DNA of 64,000 bases. Origin: Rhodoligotrophos sp. CJ14. Its GTDB lineage: Bacteria > Pseudomonadota > Alphaproteobacteria > Rhizobiales > Im1. Shown here in pieces: positions 9,177 through 48,220 of this stretch. The notes beneath the pieces were generated by a model. That model was not told the origin of the DNA. It saw only the letters and a list, made by a program, of their open reading frames with translations, and made no database searches. Each line of letters starts with the position of its first letter. Position 1 is the first letter of the stretch. The position numbers and the translations under genes were made by a program. The stretch lies in NCBI RefSeq assembly GCF_038811545.1, contig NZ_CP133319.1, forward strand, positions 248,001 to 312,000, given 5' to 3'.

Positions 9177-9977
9177 ATGGCAGAGGAACAATCGGCGCGC
9201 CGGACGAGCCAGGCGGCAAGCCGCATCACCCGCGAGGAGATCATCAAGGGTGGCTTCTCAACCCCATGGGATGCACCGGCTGCACCGGCGTTCCCGTTCA
9301 CCTTCCGCAATGTGGAGGTGCTAACCCTTGCCTGGCGCACCGACGGCGCCGCGATCGAATGCCTTTTGCCGCCGCCGCTCGAGCCGGTCTCGGACTATGT
9401 GCTCGCCCATATCTACAAGATGAATGACACCGACTGGCTCGGACCTTATTTCGAAAGCAACGTCATGGTGGGGTGCCGCTTTCCCGAAACCGGGGAGGTG
9501 GGCGGCTACTCGCCCTATCTGTTCCTCTCATCCGATGGCGGGGTGATTCAGGGCCGCGAGGTGCATGGGCAGCCAAAGAAGGGCGGCCAGCCTCACCTCG
9601 AGACTCGCGGTGATCTCTGGGTTGGAACCATCGCGCGCAATGGCATCGATGTGCTCACCGGCACCATGGCCTATAAGCATGAGACCGCAGATATTGCGCG
9701 TCTTTCCGGCTATTTCGATTTCGCGCTCAACATCAACCTCAAAGCGATCGATCACATCGATGGCAGACCCGCCATTCGCCAGTTGACGGCGCGCAGGCTC
9801 GGCGCCCTCACGGTGCATGAATGCTGGTCAGGACCCTGCACGGTTGAGCTTCGGCCGAATATTCAGGCGCCGATCTACCGCCTGCCCGTTCGAGAGATGC
9901 TGGAAGGCTTCTGGTGGCGTGCCGATTTCACCTTGGTGCCCGGCCGCATTCTTTACGACTATCTCGCCGAAGATTAG
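9177..9977 (+). CDS. Acetoacetate decarboxylase family protein
   Basis: A 266-aa member of the acetoacetate decarboxylase superfamily. The GREVHGQPKKGGQP motif aligns with the family's Schiff-base lysine pair, here Lys134-Lys135. True decarboxylases, and also aldolase-dehydratases that lack decarboxylase activity, share this fold, so the reaction is not fixed. In a cluster of dehydratases and dehydrogenases it may act on a 2-oxo or 3-oxo acid intermediate. The ATG at 9177 follows a strong AGGGAGG site; the GTG at 9171 lies inside that site and is less likely. It follows the GntR gene by 36 bases and is probably co-transcribed. Confidence 0.85.
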   Translation: MAEEQSARRTSQAASRITREEIIKGGFSTPWDAPAAPAFPFTFRNVEVLTLAWRTDGAAIECLLPPPLEPVSDYVLAHIYKMNDTDWLGPYFESNVMVGCRFPETGEVGGYSPYLFLSSDGGVIQGREVHGQPKKGGQPHLETRGDLWVGTIARNGIDVLTGTMAYKHETADIARLSGYFDFALNINLKAIDHIDGRPAIRQLTARRLGALTVHECWSGPCTVELRPNIQAPIYRLPVREMLEGFWWRADFTLVPGRILYDYLAED

Positions 9978-10096
9978 GTCTCGCGCGCGAATGGCGCAGC
10001 CACCACCTGACAATTACGTTGCTTGATCCCGCCAATTGCCGTACCCGAGCGGGCATGCGCAGGCCTGTTCTGCCTGAATGCATGAAGGAGATAGTC

Positions 10097-10693
10097 GTGA
10101 CGGATCTCGCACCCTCGCTGCGGTGGCGGGAAGGCCTGATATGCCTTGCCGCTTTTGCCGCATCGATCCCAGCAGCCAATTGGCTGATCGGCCATGTCGG
10201 CACCACATGCACGCCCGATGGCCTCTGCCTCATTCCCGTAGCCCCCGGCCTGATGGCGCCGAGCGGCGTTCTGATGGCGGGCCTTGCCCTCGTCTTGCGC
10301 GATATCGTGCAGCGGCGGCTCGGATTTGCTTGGGGCCTTGCAGCCATCTTTATTGGCGGCGCAATCTCCTGGGCTGTGTCGCCACCAGCGCTCGTGGCAG
10401 CCTCGGTGCTGGCCTTCGTGCTTTCCGAATTAGCCGATCTCCTGGTCTATACGCCCTTGCAGCGGCGAGGGCTCGTCTTGGCCGTGGTCGCCTCCGGCAT
10501 TGCCGGCATTATTGTCGACACTCTGCTGTTCCTCTATCTGGCCTTTGGTGATGTCAGTTATTTCTGGGGTCAGGCGGTCGGCAAGGGCTGGATGGTGCTA
10601 GTGTCCATTCCATTCATTGCCTGGCTGAGGCAGCGCGACCGCAGGATCGGCCTTGCGCCGCTCGGAGTCCTCGGCCAAGGAGGTTTCAAATGA
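10097..10693 (+). CDS. VUT-family queuosine precursor transporter
   Basis: A 198-aa inner-membrane protein with about six hydrophobic segments. It belongs to the VUT/YhhQ family, whose characterised members import 7-deazaguanine queuosine precursors. The last four bases (ATGA, 10690-10693) overlap the queF start, so the two are translationally coupled and the substrate link to preQ0/preQ1 is well supported by context. The best start is GTG at 10097, with AAGGAG at 10085-10090; earlier in-frame starts lack a site. A small CAGGC/GCCTG hairpin (10060-10076) lies just upstream of the ribosome site, but it does not resemble a preQ1 riboswitch. Confidence 0.82.
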
Positions 10694-11151
10694 CCAACGA
10701 AACCCAGAAGCTCACCCAGCTGGGCCAGGCTGTGGCCGCCGCGACCTCGCCCGAGGGCGCGATCCTCGAGCGCGTGCCGAACCCGCATGCGGACACCGCC
10801 TATGTCACCCGCTTCACGGTGCCGGAATTCACCTCGATCTGCCCCGTGACTGGCCAGCCGGACTTCGCGCATCTGGTGATCGACTATGTCCCCAAGGACT
10901 GGCTGGTTGAATCCAAATCCCTGAAGCTCTTCATGGCCGCCTTTCGCAACCACGGCGCCTTTCACGAGGATTGCACCGTCTATATCGGCAAGCGCTTGGT
11001 GGAGCTGCTCGACCCACATTGGCTCAGGATCGGCGGTTATTGGTATCCGCGTGGCGGCATTCCCATCGACGTGTTCTGGCAATGGGGGAGCCTCCCGGCC
11101 CAGGTCTGGGTGCCGGATCAAGGCGTGCCGCCCTATCGCGGCCGAGGCTGA
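10690..11151 (+). CDS. queF: NADPH-dependent 7-cyano-7-deazaguanine reductase
   Basis: Reduces preQ0 to preQ1 in queuosine biosynthesis, using NADPH. It is the short unimodular form of 153 aa. The catalytic Cys lies in [12 protein letters not shown] and the family QueF motif is ESKSLKLF. The TGTGGTATCC-like C-terminus is present and the protein looks complete. The start overlaps the transporter stop by ATGA. The preceding membrane gene suggests salvage of an imported precursor; no queC, D or E genes are in the window. The pair interrupts the organic-acid cluster and has no obvious metabolic link with it. Confidence 0.95.
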
Positions 11152-44300: not shown

Positions 44301-44330
44301 CGGCCCTGTGCAGGGACACGCACAGGGCCG
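44301..44330 (-). terminator. Hairpin ending the orphan operon
   Basis: CGGCCCTGTGC and GCACAGGGCCG form a perfect 11-bp stem around AGGGACAC. It lies 8 bases downstream of the last gene of the 44.3-48.1 kb cluster, and its minus-strand side is followed by ATTAG. Its stability and location suggest a transcription terminator separating this cluster from the UbiH-like gene. Confidence 0.7.
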
Positions 44331-44337
44331 AAATAGA

Positions 44338-44964
44338 CTAGGCCAAGCTAAGGCTCCAGTCCGGTGATTGCAGGACCTGAGGGGCTTCCTCTGAAGCTAT
44401 TTCGGGCATCTGATTGGAAGCGGAAAACTTGAGCATCTTGAGGAGAGCGTTTTCCGCTTCGGTGCTCGTTTGATGCTTGTCCTGGAGAGGCTCCCAGATG
44501 GTCTTCTGCGTTTCGACCGAGGTAATGACCCGAGTTTTTCCTTGACCATGCAGGATTACATTAAGGGTTGGTACCCGCGGTTTTGCCAACTCTGGGTCGG
44601 TATATGGGTCCTGATCGACACTGAAACGGAACTCGAGAAAGGACTTGGTCGGATCTGCACTATCCGGCACACGCTGACCGGGTTGGGGAATGACGGTTCC
44701 GTCAGGAACGACAAAGTTCAGATGGTGATCAGTTGGATTGAACTTAAAGAATGAATGGGGAATGGCGCTTTCGGACACCCCATCCACAATGATGTTCTTG
44801 CCGCCCCCAGGGTTCAACCAGATGCCGCAATACATATTTTTCTCGTCCTGCTCTTCCGCACAGAGCGTCTTGGAACTGGAGTAGTGCTGATAGGCACGAC
44901 CATAGGCGGAAGCAAGCTCGGCCGTCACAACGGACGGTGTGCTGGAGGCTTTGTGGTCTTCCAT
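44338..44964 (-). CDS. Uncharacterised protein, family A of the orphan cluster
   Basis: A 208-aa protein matching no family I know. It is acidic and hydrophilic, with no signal peptide or membrane segment. It shares several features with the 198-aa protein at 46144: C-x-[IV]-W-L-x-P (residues 46-52), FNP at 75-77 with a following VVPDG, the EFRF strand at 111-114, and a hydrophobic segment ending in IWEPL at 156-160. The C-terminus (DWSLSLA) resembles that of the 198-aa protein (DWSVLS). AAAGGA precedes the ATG, and the copy A element lies 290 bp upstream. Secretion by a type I system is one possibility, based only on the C-termini. Confidence 0.7.
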   Translation of the reverse strand: MEDHKASSTPSVVTAELASAYGRAYQHYSSSKTLCAEEQDEKNMYCGIWLNPGGGKNIIVDGVSESAIPHSFFKFNPTDHHLNFVVPDGTVIPQPGQRVPDSADPTKSFLEFRFSVDQDPYTDPELAKPRVPTLNVILHGQGKTRVITSVETQKTIWEPLQDKHQTSTEAENALLKMLKFSASNQMPEIASEEAPQVLQSPDWSLSLA

Positions 44965-45972
44965 GACACTGATCCTTTAGAGGTTCGAAGGGTCCGGCGA
45001 AGCCATTGAAGCCTGCCCCCTGAGTGCACCCCGCCTATGCTCGCGGCCATGAACGGCTTGAGGAGAGCGCACCCTCCTTCGTCGATCCGCCCCCAAAAGC
45101 CATTCGCGCAGCCATGCGGCATGCGTAGTCATCCCAATCCGGTCTGAGACACCAGACATCCGGGGATCGCGCGTGGCCGAGATTCGGCCACAATAGTCAA
45201 GGGCTGTTGGCTCAGGCGACAGCTTCAATTGCTTGCCTGGCTGTAATAACTCGCGAGAAGCCGGCAAAAACCGGTCACCACTGTGACATACTCCGCCCAG
45301 CGAAAGCGCGTTCGCATTCCAAACCGATCAGGACGCCGGGTTGATCCGCGCTATCTTATTGAATTCTCGAATGCTATTAATTCACGTCTGCTCGAAAATA
45401 GGTCTTTGTACACAAGAAATGGACTCTAAAACTAATGATCTATGGATCATCAGTCGTAGTTTTACTTCGTGGTTATTGAATCCTCCATCATTGAATCTAT
45501 AGTATTCGTGACGGGCCGTATGCTCTCCCATGCAGGTCCGCACGATCTGAAACGTCAGCGCAATATGGACAGGCTCATTGGGGCGTGCGGACTGGCCGGT
45601 GCAGCGGCTCGATCCATCTGTCGCAAGCTCTGCGAGGAGACCAACATTGACGAGGCCGCCAGGGGTTTGCGGCCGCCGGGGGGGGGTGGAGAGCCCCCTC
45701 AAGAAGTCCGAGTGGTTTCAGCTCCCGGCGAGCGCGTCCTGGGCGGTGGCGGCAAGTCCTGCCAGCCCACCGCCGGGGCGACCAGATCTGCTGTATTGGA
45801 TTGTCATGCGCCTGGCTCTGCAGGGCACGTTTCCCCAAGACGGGTAAGGTGATGCCTTGCCTCTGACCGTCGCGCAACCCGTTCCCTGCCGGAATGAATA
45901 GCATCGGCGGCCGATTGCGCCCGGTCCTCAGCTTCAAGGCTGGACCGGCCTGTCAGGTGGCGATCATGCCAC
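44965..45972. other. One-kilobase stretch without a convincing gene
   Basis: Several short frames exist on both strands, but none has a convincing ribosome site and codon use together. The region contains the copy A regulatory element (45253), an A+T-rich segment at roughly 45340-45500 with an ATGATC/GATCAT mini-palindrome at 45435-45450, and a run of nine G at 45678-45686. A minus-strand frame of 65 codons (44925-45122) has some protein-like composition and could be a small leader. Decayed gene remnants or an untranslated RNA are possible. No IS or transposase pieces were recognised. Confidence 0.4.
45253..45302 (-). promoter_or_regulatory. Shared upstream element, copy A
   Basis: A ~50-bp segment whose closest counterpart in the window is at 48174-48220. 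Both carry GCG...AAGC, an A-run, a C-rich block, the octamer TGTGACAT (45282-45289 here) and CAGCG in the same order and nearly the same spacing. The GTCAC/GTGAC inverted repeat within this copy is not preserved in the other. It lies upstream of the 208-aa gene, suggesting common regulation with the start of the cluster. Confidence 0.6.
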
Positions 45973-46137
45973 TCACGGCGTATCGACCAGTGGTGGACCT
46001 TCGGACTTGTAATTCACTTCCACCTGCCTGAGCACCTTGGCATCTGCCTCATCGGGATCTTGGCTCCGGGCGCGCATGAGGCGGCGCGTCCAACCTCTGT
46101 TCCACCATTCTCGCCCTACATGGGGATGCCTTGACAC
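45973..46137 (-). CDS. Possible 54-aa protein downstream of the 198-aa gene
   Basis: A short frame starting with GTG at 46137, six bases after the stop of the 198-aa gene, behind GAGGGA. The start is basic with many Trp/Arg residues (REWWNRGWTRRLMRAR), and an acidic stretch (DPDEADAKVL) follows. No family is recognised. It could be a real small gene translated from the same message, or chance. Its composition differs from the acidic proteins around it. Confidence 0.35.
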   Translation of the reverse strand: MSRHPHVGREWWNRGWTRRLMRARSQDPDEADAKVLRQVEVNYKSEGPPLVDTP

Positions 46138-46143
46138 TGTCCC

Positions 46144-46740
46144 TCAGGAGAGCACAGACCAATCCGCATCCGAGCACGGTGAACGATCCTCGGACGTGAA
46201 TTCGTCACCCCTGTCGGAAGGTAGAGCAGCCTCCGTTCCTGCCGAGGGCGTTGCGGTCAGGTTAAGCTTCGATGCAAGCCGCTCCTTCGCGGCATGCAGT
46301 GGCAGATCCTGACGCAAATCCGCCCAAGAACTCGGCTCAAGCGTTATCGACCCGAGATACTGGTCAGTATCCTTGAACCAGAAATGCAGGGCCACGGTCT
46401 CCAATCCCTCAACTGGGGTGTCATCGAACCTGAAGCTCAAGATTGGCGCGGATGGAGGATCACCTGATGATTTGTCCGAGTCTGCTGAACGGACTTCCAA
46501 TACGTGCCGGTCCGGGTTGAAGCGCGGAAAATGATGCCGGACATTGGCTTCGTCAACCAGGTCAAACCGGGCGGCACCGGGCTGATCGGGCGTGAGCCAC
46601 ACGTGACAGTCGATCAAGCCTTCAGAGGAACTCGCTAAGCTCGTCTGTCCGGATGCTTTGTGTTTCTCCGTGTGCTCCGCCGCCGCCGCTTCGGAGGAGG
46701 TCGTTGAATCCCGTCTGTTCGTACACCCGTCCTCAGTCAT
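46144..46740 (-). CDS. Uncharacterised protein, family A of the orphan cluster
   Basis: A 198-aa acidic protein with no signal peptide or membrane segment. The first 40 residues are Ser/Thr/Ala-rich and probably disordered. The core shares C-x-[IV]-W-L-x-P (45-51), FNP (74-76), SFRF (102-105) and the LGSITL segment ending in SSW at 139 with the 208- and 180-aa proteins. The final 30 residues are acidic and end in DWSVLS. A strong AGGAGGAG site precedes the ATG. It follows the 180-aa gene by 22 bases and is surely co-transcribed. Function unknown; the shared core suggests a beta-rich binding domain. Confidence 0.72.
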   Translation of the reverse strand: MTEDGCTNRRDSTTSSEAAAAEHTEKHKASGQTSLASSSEGLIDCHVWLTPDQPGAARFDLVDEANVRHHFPRFNPDRHVLEVRSADSDKSSGDPPSAPILSFRFDDTPVEGLETVALHFWFKDTDQYLGSITLEPSSWADLRQDLPLHAAKERLASKLNLTATPSAGTEAALPSDRGDEFTSEDRSPCSDADWSVLS

Positions 46741-46762
46741 CTTGATCTCCTCCTGTTGAATG

Positions 46763-47305
46763 CTAAGCCATAGTCAGCGCGTCCTGATGATCGCCGAAGT
46801 CGTGATCGAAGGCTTCCAGATCCGGGCGCTTCGTGCAGTCGTGCAGTTCACCGAAACCGACAATACCGTCAGAGGCGCCTTCATTTTGCTCGGTGGATCG
46901 AGTGGCGCGGGAAGTGCCCTTCTGATAAAGCATCGCCGACTCAAAGAGCTTTGCTTCCTCCTCCACCTGGAGCATTTCGGGTGTCCTCCCTGACAGGTGG
47001 TTCTGGTGGTCCCGTGGGCCCCACCACCAATCCCGAGCCAAGGTGACGGAGCCCAGAGGAACTGCCTCGTTTTCCCGATGCCATGTAAAGTTCACGACCG
47101 ATCGATTGCCCTCCGTTCTAGCGAGCTTGGACTCGATCTGCGTCACCACATCTAGAAGAGACCACCCGTTTGGCGGGATGATGTAAAATGTTTGCCTTTT
47201 TGGGTTGAAATCGTCATACGCGACGGTCGTGATGGACGTCGGATCGGAGAGATCGAAGATGGCGTTGGTGGGGCTAGCTGGTCGAGCTGAAGGTTCATGG
47301 CTCAC
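46763..47305 (-). CDS. Uncharacterised protein, diverged member of the orphan cluster
   Basis: A 180-aa protein with the FNP motif at 33-35 followed by PPNG at 44-47, then a VVNFTWH strand (70-76) and PLGSVTLARDWW (84-95). These align with the core of the 198- and 208-aa proteins, but the C-x-[IV]-W-L-x-P block is missing, so it is a shorter version. The C-terminal half is acidic and His/Asp-rich, ending in DALTMA. It starts at GTG 47305, which overlaps the stop of a 20-codon leader frame by GTGA. It has no other ribosome site, so translation probably depends on the leader. Function unknown. Confidence 0.7.
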   Translation of the reverse strand: MSHEPSARPASPTNAIFDLSDPTSITTVAYDDFNPKRQTFYIIPPNGWSLLDVVTQIESKLARTEGNRSVVNFTWHRENEAVPLGSVTLARDWWWGPRDHQNHLSGRTPEMLQVEEEAKLFESAMLYQKGTSRATRSTEQNEGASDGIVGFGELHDCTKRPDLEAFDHDFGDHQDALTMA

Positions 47306-47364
47306 AGCAGTCGGTCCCGAGCTGTTTTGCTGCGAATGATTTGAAGATTGTAGTACTTAGACAT
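47302..47364 (-). CDS. 20-aa coupled leader ORF
   Basis: ATG at 47364 begins MSKYYNLQIIRSKTARDRLL and ends at a TGA overlapping the GTG of the 180-aa gene (GTGA). An AAAGGAG site lies upstream. The arrangement is typical of translational coupling, either to set the level of the next protein or for attenuation. The small frame could also be the fragment of a longer lost N-terminus, but the coupling geometry argues against that. Confidence 0.5.
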   Translation of the reverse strand: MSKYYNLQIIRSKTARDRLL

Positions 47365-47417
47365 CCATTTATTCTCCTTTTGCCGCTTTTGTTTTTGTTC
47401 TGTGGCCCGTTTTCGGC

Positions 47418-47771
47418 TCAGGCAAGAGTGCCCAGATCCTGAGCGGCTTGCGTGGTGTCATGAGGCGTGGGAGAGGCGTCCTCCCACAGCGCCGTATTTC
47501 CCTGCAATCGCCGCTCGAGCGTTTCCACCGCCAACTGGACCATTGCTGGATCCAGCTTTGGCCGGTGATCGGCTTTGCTGGTCCCATCGTCGCAGCCACC
47601 ATCGAGGGTCGTTGCGATCCCTGTCCGAACCAGATCTCCCTGGTTCACGACATGTATGAGCTGAGTGATCGCAGCCTCGCCCGCCTCGTCGCGATCGAGG
47701 TTGTGGCTTCCAGCTGCTTGCGTCGGCTGTGTGGTCGGCACTTGGTGATGTTGGTCTTGCATGACAGTCAT
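47418..47771 (-). CDS. Uncharacterised small protein of the orphan cluster
   Basis: A 117-aa hydrophilic protein, rich in Thr, Gln, Asp and Ala. A Gln/Thr-rich N-terminus precedes a helical segment (EAAITQLIHVVNQGDLV) and another (AMVQLAVETLERRLQG). It ends in DLGTLA, similar in form to the C-termini of the larger proteins. No family is recognised. The ATG at 47771 overlaps the stop of the preceding 96-aa gene (ATGA), so the two are co-translated. The next gene follows after a 53-base gap to the leader. Confidence 0.6.
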   Translation of the reverse strand: MTVMQDQHHQVPTTQPTQAAGSHNLDRDEAGEAAITQLIHVVNQGDLVRTGIATTLDGGCDDGTSKADHRPKLDPAMVQLAVETLERRLQGNTALWEDASPTPHDTTQAAQDLGTLA

Positions 47772-48058
47772 TTACCTTTTCTGGGGCAAACAAAGGGCTC
47801 ATATTCGGGCTGCTCGGCGGCTGACGGGCCGGCAGGAGGCAGCGTCTCCGGCGACAGTGTCACGGGGGACAATGCTGAGGTTTTCCGGAGCGCCCAGACC
47901 TGTTCACCGCCACCGGCGCGCGGCGCCTGCGAATGAACATCGCCAGTTGCGGTCATATTGCCCGGTGTATCGTGATCAGCATCGCGCCCGGCCGTGTCCT
48001 CAACCGAACAGGATTGAGGATCCAACTGAACAAACGAAGGGGTTTCTTCACAAACCAT
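47768..48058 (-). CDS. Uncharacterised small protein, first gene of the orphan cluster
   Basis: A 96-aa protein, Pro/Glu/Ser-rich and probably disordered, with Cys residues near the start (MVCEE, QSCSVED) and end (FVCPRKGK). No family or localisation signal is recognised. Its ATG at 48058 follows a weak AAAGG site. The stop overlaps the start of the 117-aa gene. The copy B element lies 116 bases upstream, making this the likely first gene of the operon. Confidence 0.55.
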   Translation of the reverse strand: MVCEETPSFVQLDPQSCSVEDTAGRDADHDTPGNMTATGDVHSQAPRAGGGEQVWALRKTSALSPVTLSPETLPPAGPSAAEQPEYEPFVCPRKGK

Positions 48059-48173
48059 CGCCTTTATGGATTAAGTTCATAAGGTGTTTCTTTTCGCTAT
48101 TGCTTGGTCTTGCAGCCCGGACCGTTTGATTTTATTCACGGCTGACCGGTGCTAAGTCTCGGACAATTGCGCC

Positions 48174-48220
48174 GCGAAGCTGGAAAAAGCGCGGCCCCAA
48201 TGTGACATGCCGGGACAGCG
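48174..48220 (-). promoter_or_regulatory. Shared upstream element, copy B
   Basis: The counterpart of the element at 45253-45302, containing TGTGACAT at 48201-48208 and the same flanking blocks. It is 116 bases before the first gene of the orphan cluster. The remainder of the 309-base gap between that gene and gatC (48059-48367) contains nothing else recognisable; the gatC promoter presumably lies in it. Confidence 0.6.

Follow-up and report, generated by a model that had tools for sequence, protein, structure and literature searches.

The window considered here is a 64,000-nucleotide stretch of the Rhodoligotrophos sp. CJ14 genome, and we focus on a minus-strand cluster at positions 44301–48220 within it, which comprises five open reading frames (ORFs) of 96, 117, 180, 198 and 208 amino acids (aa). 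Sequence comparison indicates that this is a real, taxonomically restricted family of paralogous proteins encoded in a syntenic cluster. A sequence-only reading had listed these ORFs with the same sizes and had described an orphan cluster of paralogous acidic proteins sharing a common core and C-termini; the ORFs are present, the description is supported and no family matched significantly. The explanation that we tentatively favour is that the products form a secreted multi-protein assembly exported by a type I secretion system (T1SS). The comparison draws on four genomes, namely that of the window itself (G000), two of the same genus (G002 and G003) and one from a sister genus of the same family (G001), and on a set of 11 proteins made up of the five window ORFs, the five ORFs of a G003 cluster and one lone G003 member.

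As judged from alignment statistics, the 180-, 198- and 208-aa proteins are one paralogous family, related beyond chance. The 198- and 208-aa proteins match each other with expectation values (E) of 2e-7 in pairwise BLASTP, 1.6e-6 in an all-against-all comparison and 9.5e-4 in a search of their own genome. Direct similarity between the 180- and 198-aa proteins is weak (E 0.14, all-against-all); the 180-aa protein is placed in the core family because a 227-aa G003 protein bridges the two, matching the former by BLASTP at E 6e-17 and the latter at E 3e-8. The 208-aa protein and the 213-aa protein at the same place in G003 share 40% identity (E 1.3e-45). The shared motifs reported earlier are all found: CHVWLTP/CGIWLNP, FNP at residues 74–76 and 75–77, SFRF/EFRF and SSW/IW in the two longest proteins, and FNP...PPNG and LGSVTL..WWW in the 180-aa protein. 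The core family was built into a profile (A1) with seven members, and profile scores are circular for the members that built it. Beyond the core, the 117-aa protein has a 119-aa homologue in G003 (BLASTP E 5e-5, shuffle z 5.0). All 11 proteins are acidic, with isoelectric points of 4.55–5.09 for the five window proteins and 4.1–5.3 over the whole set. The 96-aa ORF had also been read as a gene, and here the evidence goes the other way: its codon-position GC (0.66/0.57/0.57) is not coding-like, and it shows no similarity to the 96-aa ORF in the matching place in G003 (z 0.15).

When the four genomes are searched with the family by tblastn, G000 and G003 alone yield homologues. In samples of 397 genomes from the order, 385 from the class and 398 from the phylum, profile A1 matched two, one and one, respectively; these draws overlap, and every match is G000 or G003. 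In G003 the cluster occupies the same place as in the window, flanked by gatC and a UbiH-like gene, and encodes ORFs of 96, 145, 119, 227 and 213 aa, of which the 145-, 227- and 213-aa products belong to the core family. UbiH and gatC are about 0.4 kb apart in G002, where the cluster is absent and the site is empty; G001 has no family member by tblastn or profile, and the neighbourhood beside its UbiH gene reads as different. The seventh core member stands alone in G003 (locus L011, 8523–9257, plus strand), about 45 bp past nitrile hydratase alpha, beta and accessory genes (names and start codon by sequence reading). Linkage among the homologues is otherwise kept in G003, so that the unlinked scatter named earlier as a refutation is not what is seen. 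Plasmids (two queries), phages (one query), viral contigs (three queries) and genome contigs returned no family match.

Protein identities between the window and G003 show that the cluster genes diverge far faster than their neighbours. The neighbouring products are 93.3% (GatA), 86.3% (GatC), 88.8% (HspQ-like) and 69.5% (UbiH) identical, against 41.3% for the 208/213-aa pair, 27.6% for 198/227, 28.1% for 180/227 and 27.8% for 117/119. Genes that are only 28–41% identical at the same place in two species and yet are still open argue for selection. Third-position GC is 0.57–0.65 in the window cluster genes and 0.70–0.82 in four neighbours.

Searches of family and fold libraries were largely silent. 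Pfam gave no significant match for eight window ORFs, with no cadherin- or immunoglobulin-like model up to E 5, and for the seven A1 members no such match up to E 1, another weak match being zf-UBP at E 0.23; the faint cadherin-like resemblance suggested earlier is without sequence support. A match of DUF2436 to the 208-aa protein (E 0.008, 16.4 bits, under the cut-off of 25) involves one of the seven A1 members and is taken as chance. With the five window proteins, NCBIfam returned nothing and PHROGs nothing significant (a single match, E 0.29), and nine proteins, the set without the G003 213-aa protein and the lone G003 member, matched no PADLOC anti-phage family up to E 1. A profile search of the PDB found nothing significant (best E 0.67). 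AlphaFold2 models are of low confidence (predicted local distance difference test scores of 38.7 and 42.4), and a Foldseek search with a low-confidence model, best E 0.25, was not used. A limited literature search by title and start of abstract found no report of such an operon.

The most informative clue, missed in the earlier reading, is an alike C-terminus on proteins outside the core family. The pattern Asp-(Leu/Trp/Phe)-x2-5-Ala/Ser, or D[LFW].{2,5}[AS]N?$, stands at the end of 8 of the 11 proteins. It is also seen once among 200 background genes, which are ORFs, RTX proteins included, chosen from the fetched loci by length and codon-position GC. The tails are DWSLSLA, DADWSVLS, QDLGTLA, ADLHALS, DDLSIS, EDLSDLAN, PDWDFPLPA and SDFITA. 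Three proteins do not fit the pattern: the 180-aa protein (QDALTMA), the 96-aa ORF of the window and, in G003, the 145-aa protein (FSFMDMA). Among the carriers are three proteins without detectable relation to the core, namely the 117-aa protein, its 119-aa homologue and the 96-aa protein of G003. The sole background gene with the full pattern encodes a G000 RTX protein, and some 2.5 kb separate it from a T1SS gene of the PrtD type. A smaller background of 184 genes was obtained by removing weakly coding-like ORFs and three RTX proteins from the 200. Against it, Asp followed by Phe, Leu or Trp within the last nine residues is found in 8/11 proteins versus 15/184 (and 2/25 small acidic genes), and the last ten residues are without Lys or Arg, a feature of our own devising, in 10/11 versus 42/184.

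The tail pattern was chosen after the tails had been seen, and published features of RTX tails were therefore also applied; these are described as six short features in the last 20 residues, plus a composition score (PMC8861453). Several are enriched, by single-test p values that treat homologues as independent: D[FL] (7/11 versus 31/184, p 0.001), AxD (6/11 versus 13/184, p 1e-4), Dxx[FI] (4/11 versus 17/184, p 0.02) and TxxD (2/11 versus 3/184, p 0.03). The composition score has a median of 4 versus 1 in the background (p 0.003), and the three G000 RTX proteins score 6–10; these three were found by Pfam and provide tails for comparison, not a link to the cluster. An extreme C-terminal motif of acidic then hydrophobic residues has been described for the TliA lipase and AprA (PMC2642768).

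A signal-like N-terminal stretch is absent from 10 of the 11 proteins, the first 40 residues reaching a hydropathy of at most 0.84 versus 2.5–2.7 in two controls; the exception, the G003 213-aa protein, scores 1.92 and may begin nine codons further on at a GTG (sequence reading). Over the 11 proteins the highest 19-residue hydropathy mean is 1.01. RTX repeats were looked for as PF00353, unmatched in the five window ORFs and seven A1 members, and as GG.G.D, found in 0 of the 11 proteins. Of the secretion machinery, the PrtD family scores above its cut-off in all four genomes, so that a T1SS exporter is present; in G003 it is present with no PF00353 match. The type III secretion system (T3SS) marker HrcV has no match in G000, G002 or G003, and the type VI (T6SS) sheath protein VipA none in any of the four genomes. 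Readings of the proteins as T3SS or T6SS effectors were dropped, both markers being absent from the two carriers.

Some further observations concern these machineries. Two related proteins, one of them of HrcV type, are encoded in G001. Neither has a match in the other three genomes, all of the window's genus, and these three may therefore be without flagella and T3SS. In both G000 and G002 a PrtD-type T1SS adjoins tadA- and mutL-like genes, and no neighbouring cargo gene was recognised; the sole PrtD match of G003, close to a contig end, is also by a tadA-like ORF. Of the eight PrtD places, five were read with a simple ORF caller, and no RTX cargo was recognised in these stretches.

Export by a T1SS is favoured because 10 of the 11 N-termini are signal-less, the proteins are acidic, most tails are T1SS-like, PrtD is present, and HrcV and VipA are unmatched in the two carriers. 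In the mechanism that we propose, small acidic proteins would leave the cytoplasm through a type I (ATP-binding cassette, ABC) exporter encoded elsewhere in the genome. On most of them the exporter would recognise an uncleaved, extreme C-terminal tail, composed of an acidic residue, a large hydrophobic one and, at the very end, a small one. Once exported, the companion proteins and the paralogous core domains would probably come together in a single complex on the surface or in a matrix. Export, the choice of exporter and assembly are what we infer; any role outside the cell is a guess. A more specific version, in which a novel extracellular assembly combines one genus-specific paralogous fold with unrelated partners, is served by a single stand-alone T1SS and uses a minimal RTX-less tail as a portable signal acquired by unrelated proteins, we consider rather doubtful.

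A number of points weigh against T1SS export. Two of the published features fail, TL/LT (3/11 versus 25/184, p 0.20) and Tx[LT] (0/11 versus 22/184), and the 208-aa protein, whose last 20 residues include Glu and Pro, has a composition score of just 2. The published terminal pair [FLI][VAI] is seen in only 2/11 versus 4/184 (p 0.04) and the HlyA-like pair [LS][AV] in 2/11 versus 9/184 (p 0.12); the terminal pair here is mostly Leu, Ile or Met followed by Ala or Ser, unlike the published one. When one protein is taken per group, D[FL] falls to 3–4 of 7 groups (p 0.02–0.10) and AxD to 2–4 of 7 (p 0.0007–0.08), and these seven groups still divide the core family into four; the shared tails of core members are partly due to descent. 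A Cys pair is present in four of the five long-core members, and such a pair is unusual for T1SS cargo. The T1SS is also found in G001 and G002, both of which are without the cluster, and no ABC exporter was recognised among the ORFs around the cluster. RTX T1SS signals are given as about 60 residues long (PMC3034196), against the 9–20 compared here, and for one lipase, shifting the acidic residue of the terminal motif is reported to have left export unimpaired (PMC2642768). The missing exporter linkage is no bar to export, because the T1SS PrsDE of Rhizobium leguminosarum reportedly serves 13 or more dissimilar proteins whose genes are scattered (PMC2275737).

The strongest rival is that the proteins stay in the cytoplasm as an intracellular complex, with the tail serving in docking or sorting, for instance to a protease, a partner or a protein shell. 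Partner binding through short C-terminal tags is a known phenomenon. Most of the set (10/11) is without a signal peptide, the cluster contains no exporter and the tails show some but not all of the features published for T1SS cargo, all of which suits retention; that several of those features are enriched, and that the one background gene with the full pattern encodes an RTX protein near a T1SS, speaks for export instead. We regard retention as possible but on the unlikely side.

We give less credence to an antagonism system, in which exported or surface proteins would inhibit neighbouring cells and evolve in an arms race, functionally like the Cdz bacteriocins. The divergence of the cluster (28–41% identity, versus 69–93% in flanking genes) and its presence or absence among congeners fit such a system, as does the description of Cdz as a two-protein, T1SS-dependent bacteriocin (PMC5380434). 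On the other side, none of the 11 proteins is a membrane-spanning immunity candidate, given 19-residue hydropathy means of at most 1.01, and there is no linked exporter. The tail is on 8 of the 11, and few of them therefore resemble a retained immunity protein. We regard antagonism as improbable.

Equally improbable in our view is a cargo island derived from a mobile element or phage, with no fixed role in the cell and now decaying. The empty site in G002, the lower third-position GC relative to the neighbours and the lone member away from the cluster in G003 are in keeping with this, and the 1.18-kb gap that separates the 198-aa gene from the 208-aa gene holds a segment that may, by its residual similarity (not significant), be a remnant of one more core copy. 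Against it, the searches of plasmids (two queries), phages (one) and viral contigs (three) returned no match, and divergent yet open syntenic genes argue for selection. A known insertion sequence in the gap was considered and dropped, the search of plasmid DNA having given no match. That the ORFs are chance products with look-alike motifs is barely credible, fitting the 96-aa ORF alone and being contradicted for four of the five by the cross-genome homology of the 117-, 180-, 198- and 208-aa proteins.

If the tails are indeed export signals, the cluster would encode non-RTX type I cargo in which a core family and unrelated proteins bear alike, very short terminal signals. If this is true, small proteins would allow a direct test of the open question of what a T1SS reads. 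The cluster also suggests a secreted structure that is specific to this lineage and undescribed in the family libraries searched.

Table 1. Features of the cluster in the window, followed by the loci of PrtD-type T1SS genes
Feature	Position	Strand	Basis or status
Perfect 11-bp hairpin with 8-nt loop, directly past the 208-aa gene	44301..44330	-	Absent from terminator list
208-aa core-family protein, tail SPDWSLSLA	44338..44964	-	Homology to G003 213-aa protein
1.18-kb gap (1,179 bp) between the 198- and 208-aa genes, without confirmed gene	44965..46143	-	
Candidate remnant, C-terminal half of a further core copy, right after the 198-aa gene	45976..46143	-	Profile E 1.9, not significant
198-aa core-family protein, tail SDADWSVLS	46144..46740	-	BLASTP homology
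180-aa short core-family protein without N-terminal Cys arm, C-terminus QDALTMA	46763..47305	-	BLASTP homology
20-codon leader ORF, sharing GTGA with the start (GTG) of the 180-aa gene	47302..47364	-	Sequence reading
117-aa protein, tail QDLGTLA	47418..47771	-	Homologue in G003 (119 aa)
96-aa ORF, doubtful gene, ends CPRKGK, without tail	47768..48058	-	
PrtD-type T1SS locus	L044 5153-8675	-	
PrtD-type T1SS locus	L046 6596-8362	-	
PrtD-type T1SS locus	L045 near 9372-10991		

The layout of the cluster (table 1) bears out the earlier claims of coupling and of a single operon in part. The 96-aa ORF and the 117-aa gene do overlap by ATGA; the GTGA overlap exists as well, and it joins the start of the 180-aa gene to the leader ORF, not to the 117-aa gene, from whose upstream end point that start is 112 bp away. 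Translational coupling or attenuation of the 180-aa gene by this leader is possible. The 198-aa gene follows the 180-aa gene by 22 bp and is preceded by a good AGGAGG; the 208-aa gene lies 1,179 bp beyond the 198-aa gene, so that one operon of five genes is unproven. In G003 the gap between the corresponding core genes (227 and 213 aa) is 103 bp, and its 145- and 119-aa genes overlap by GTGA. The hairpin at the end of the run, also noticed earlier, is present and is the sole perfect 11-bp hairpin with a 3–8-nt loop across the window; no T-run follows it, and its role as a terminator is therefore unproven. Shared flanking elements, likewise proposed, were not borne out: the direct repeats are weak, in families of two or three copies, and the arms of inverted ones have diverged. 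On the opposite strand, a 162-aa ORF (47448–47936, plus strand) lies antisense to part of the 96-aa ORF and to the 117-aa gene; its third-position GC is 0.69 and it is probably a mirror of the coding strand.

Among known systems, cadherin-like domains may have a beta-rich core in common with the family, going by low-confidence models, with no Pfam match. RTX proteins (PF00353), including that at G000:C1:2773610-2779210, resemble the cluster products in a T1SS-type tail of Asp and hydrophobic residues (ISSLSADDFRYA). The window and G003 proteins differ from them in being without GGxGxD, small (96–244 aa), unlinked to an exporter and mostly furnished with another terminal pair. The gene for the hemophore HasA sits with its exporter genes. 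HasA is alike in being described as T1SS cargo without RTX repeats (PMC8277102); no Pfam match relates it, TliA, AprA or Cdz to the cluster family. The contact-dependent bacteriocin Cdz of Caulobacter resembles the cluster in being alphaproteobacterial and made of more than one protein, and its T1SS dependence parallels the export proposed here; it is described as using proteins of the glycine-zipper kind, with immunity conferred by a small transmembrane protein (PMC5380434). The cluster shows no membrane protein. The cluster proteins, which are without a significant Pfam match, can be likened by description, not by sequence, to the rhizobial PrsDE substrates (RapA2, PlyB, NodO and others), and these offer the parallel of one T1SS that exports many dissimilar proteins encoded by scattered genes (PMC2275737).

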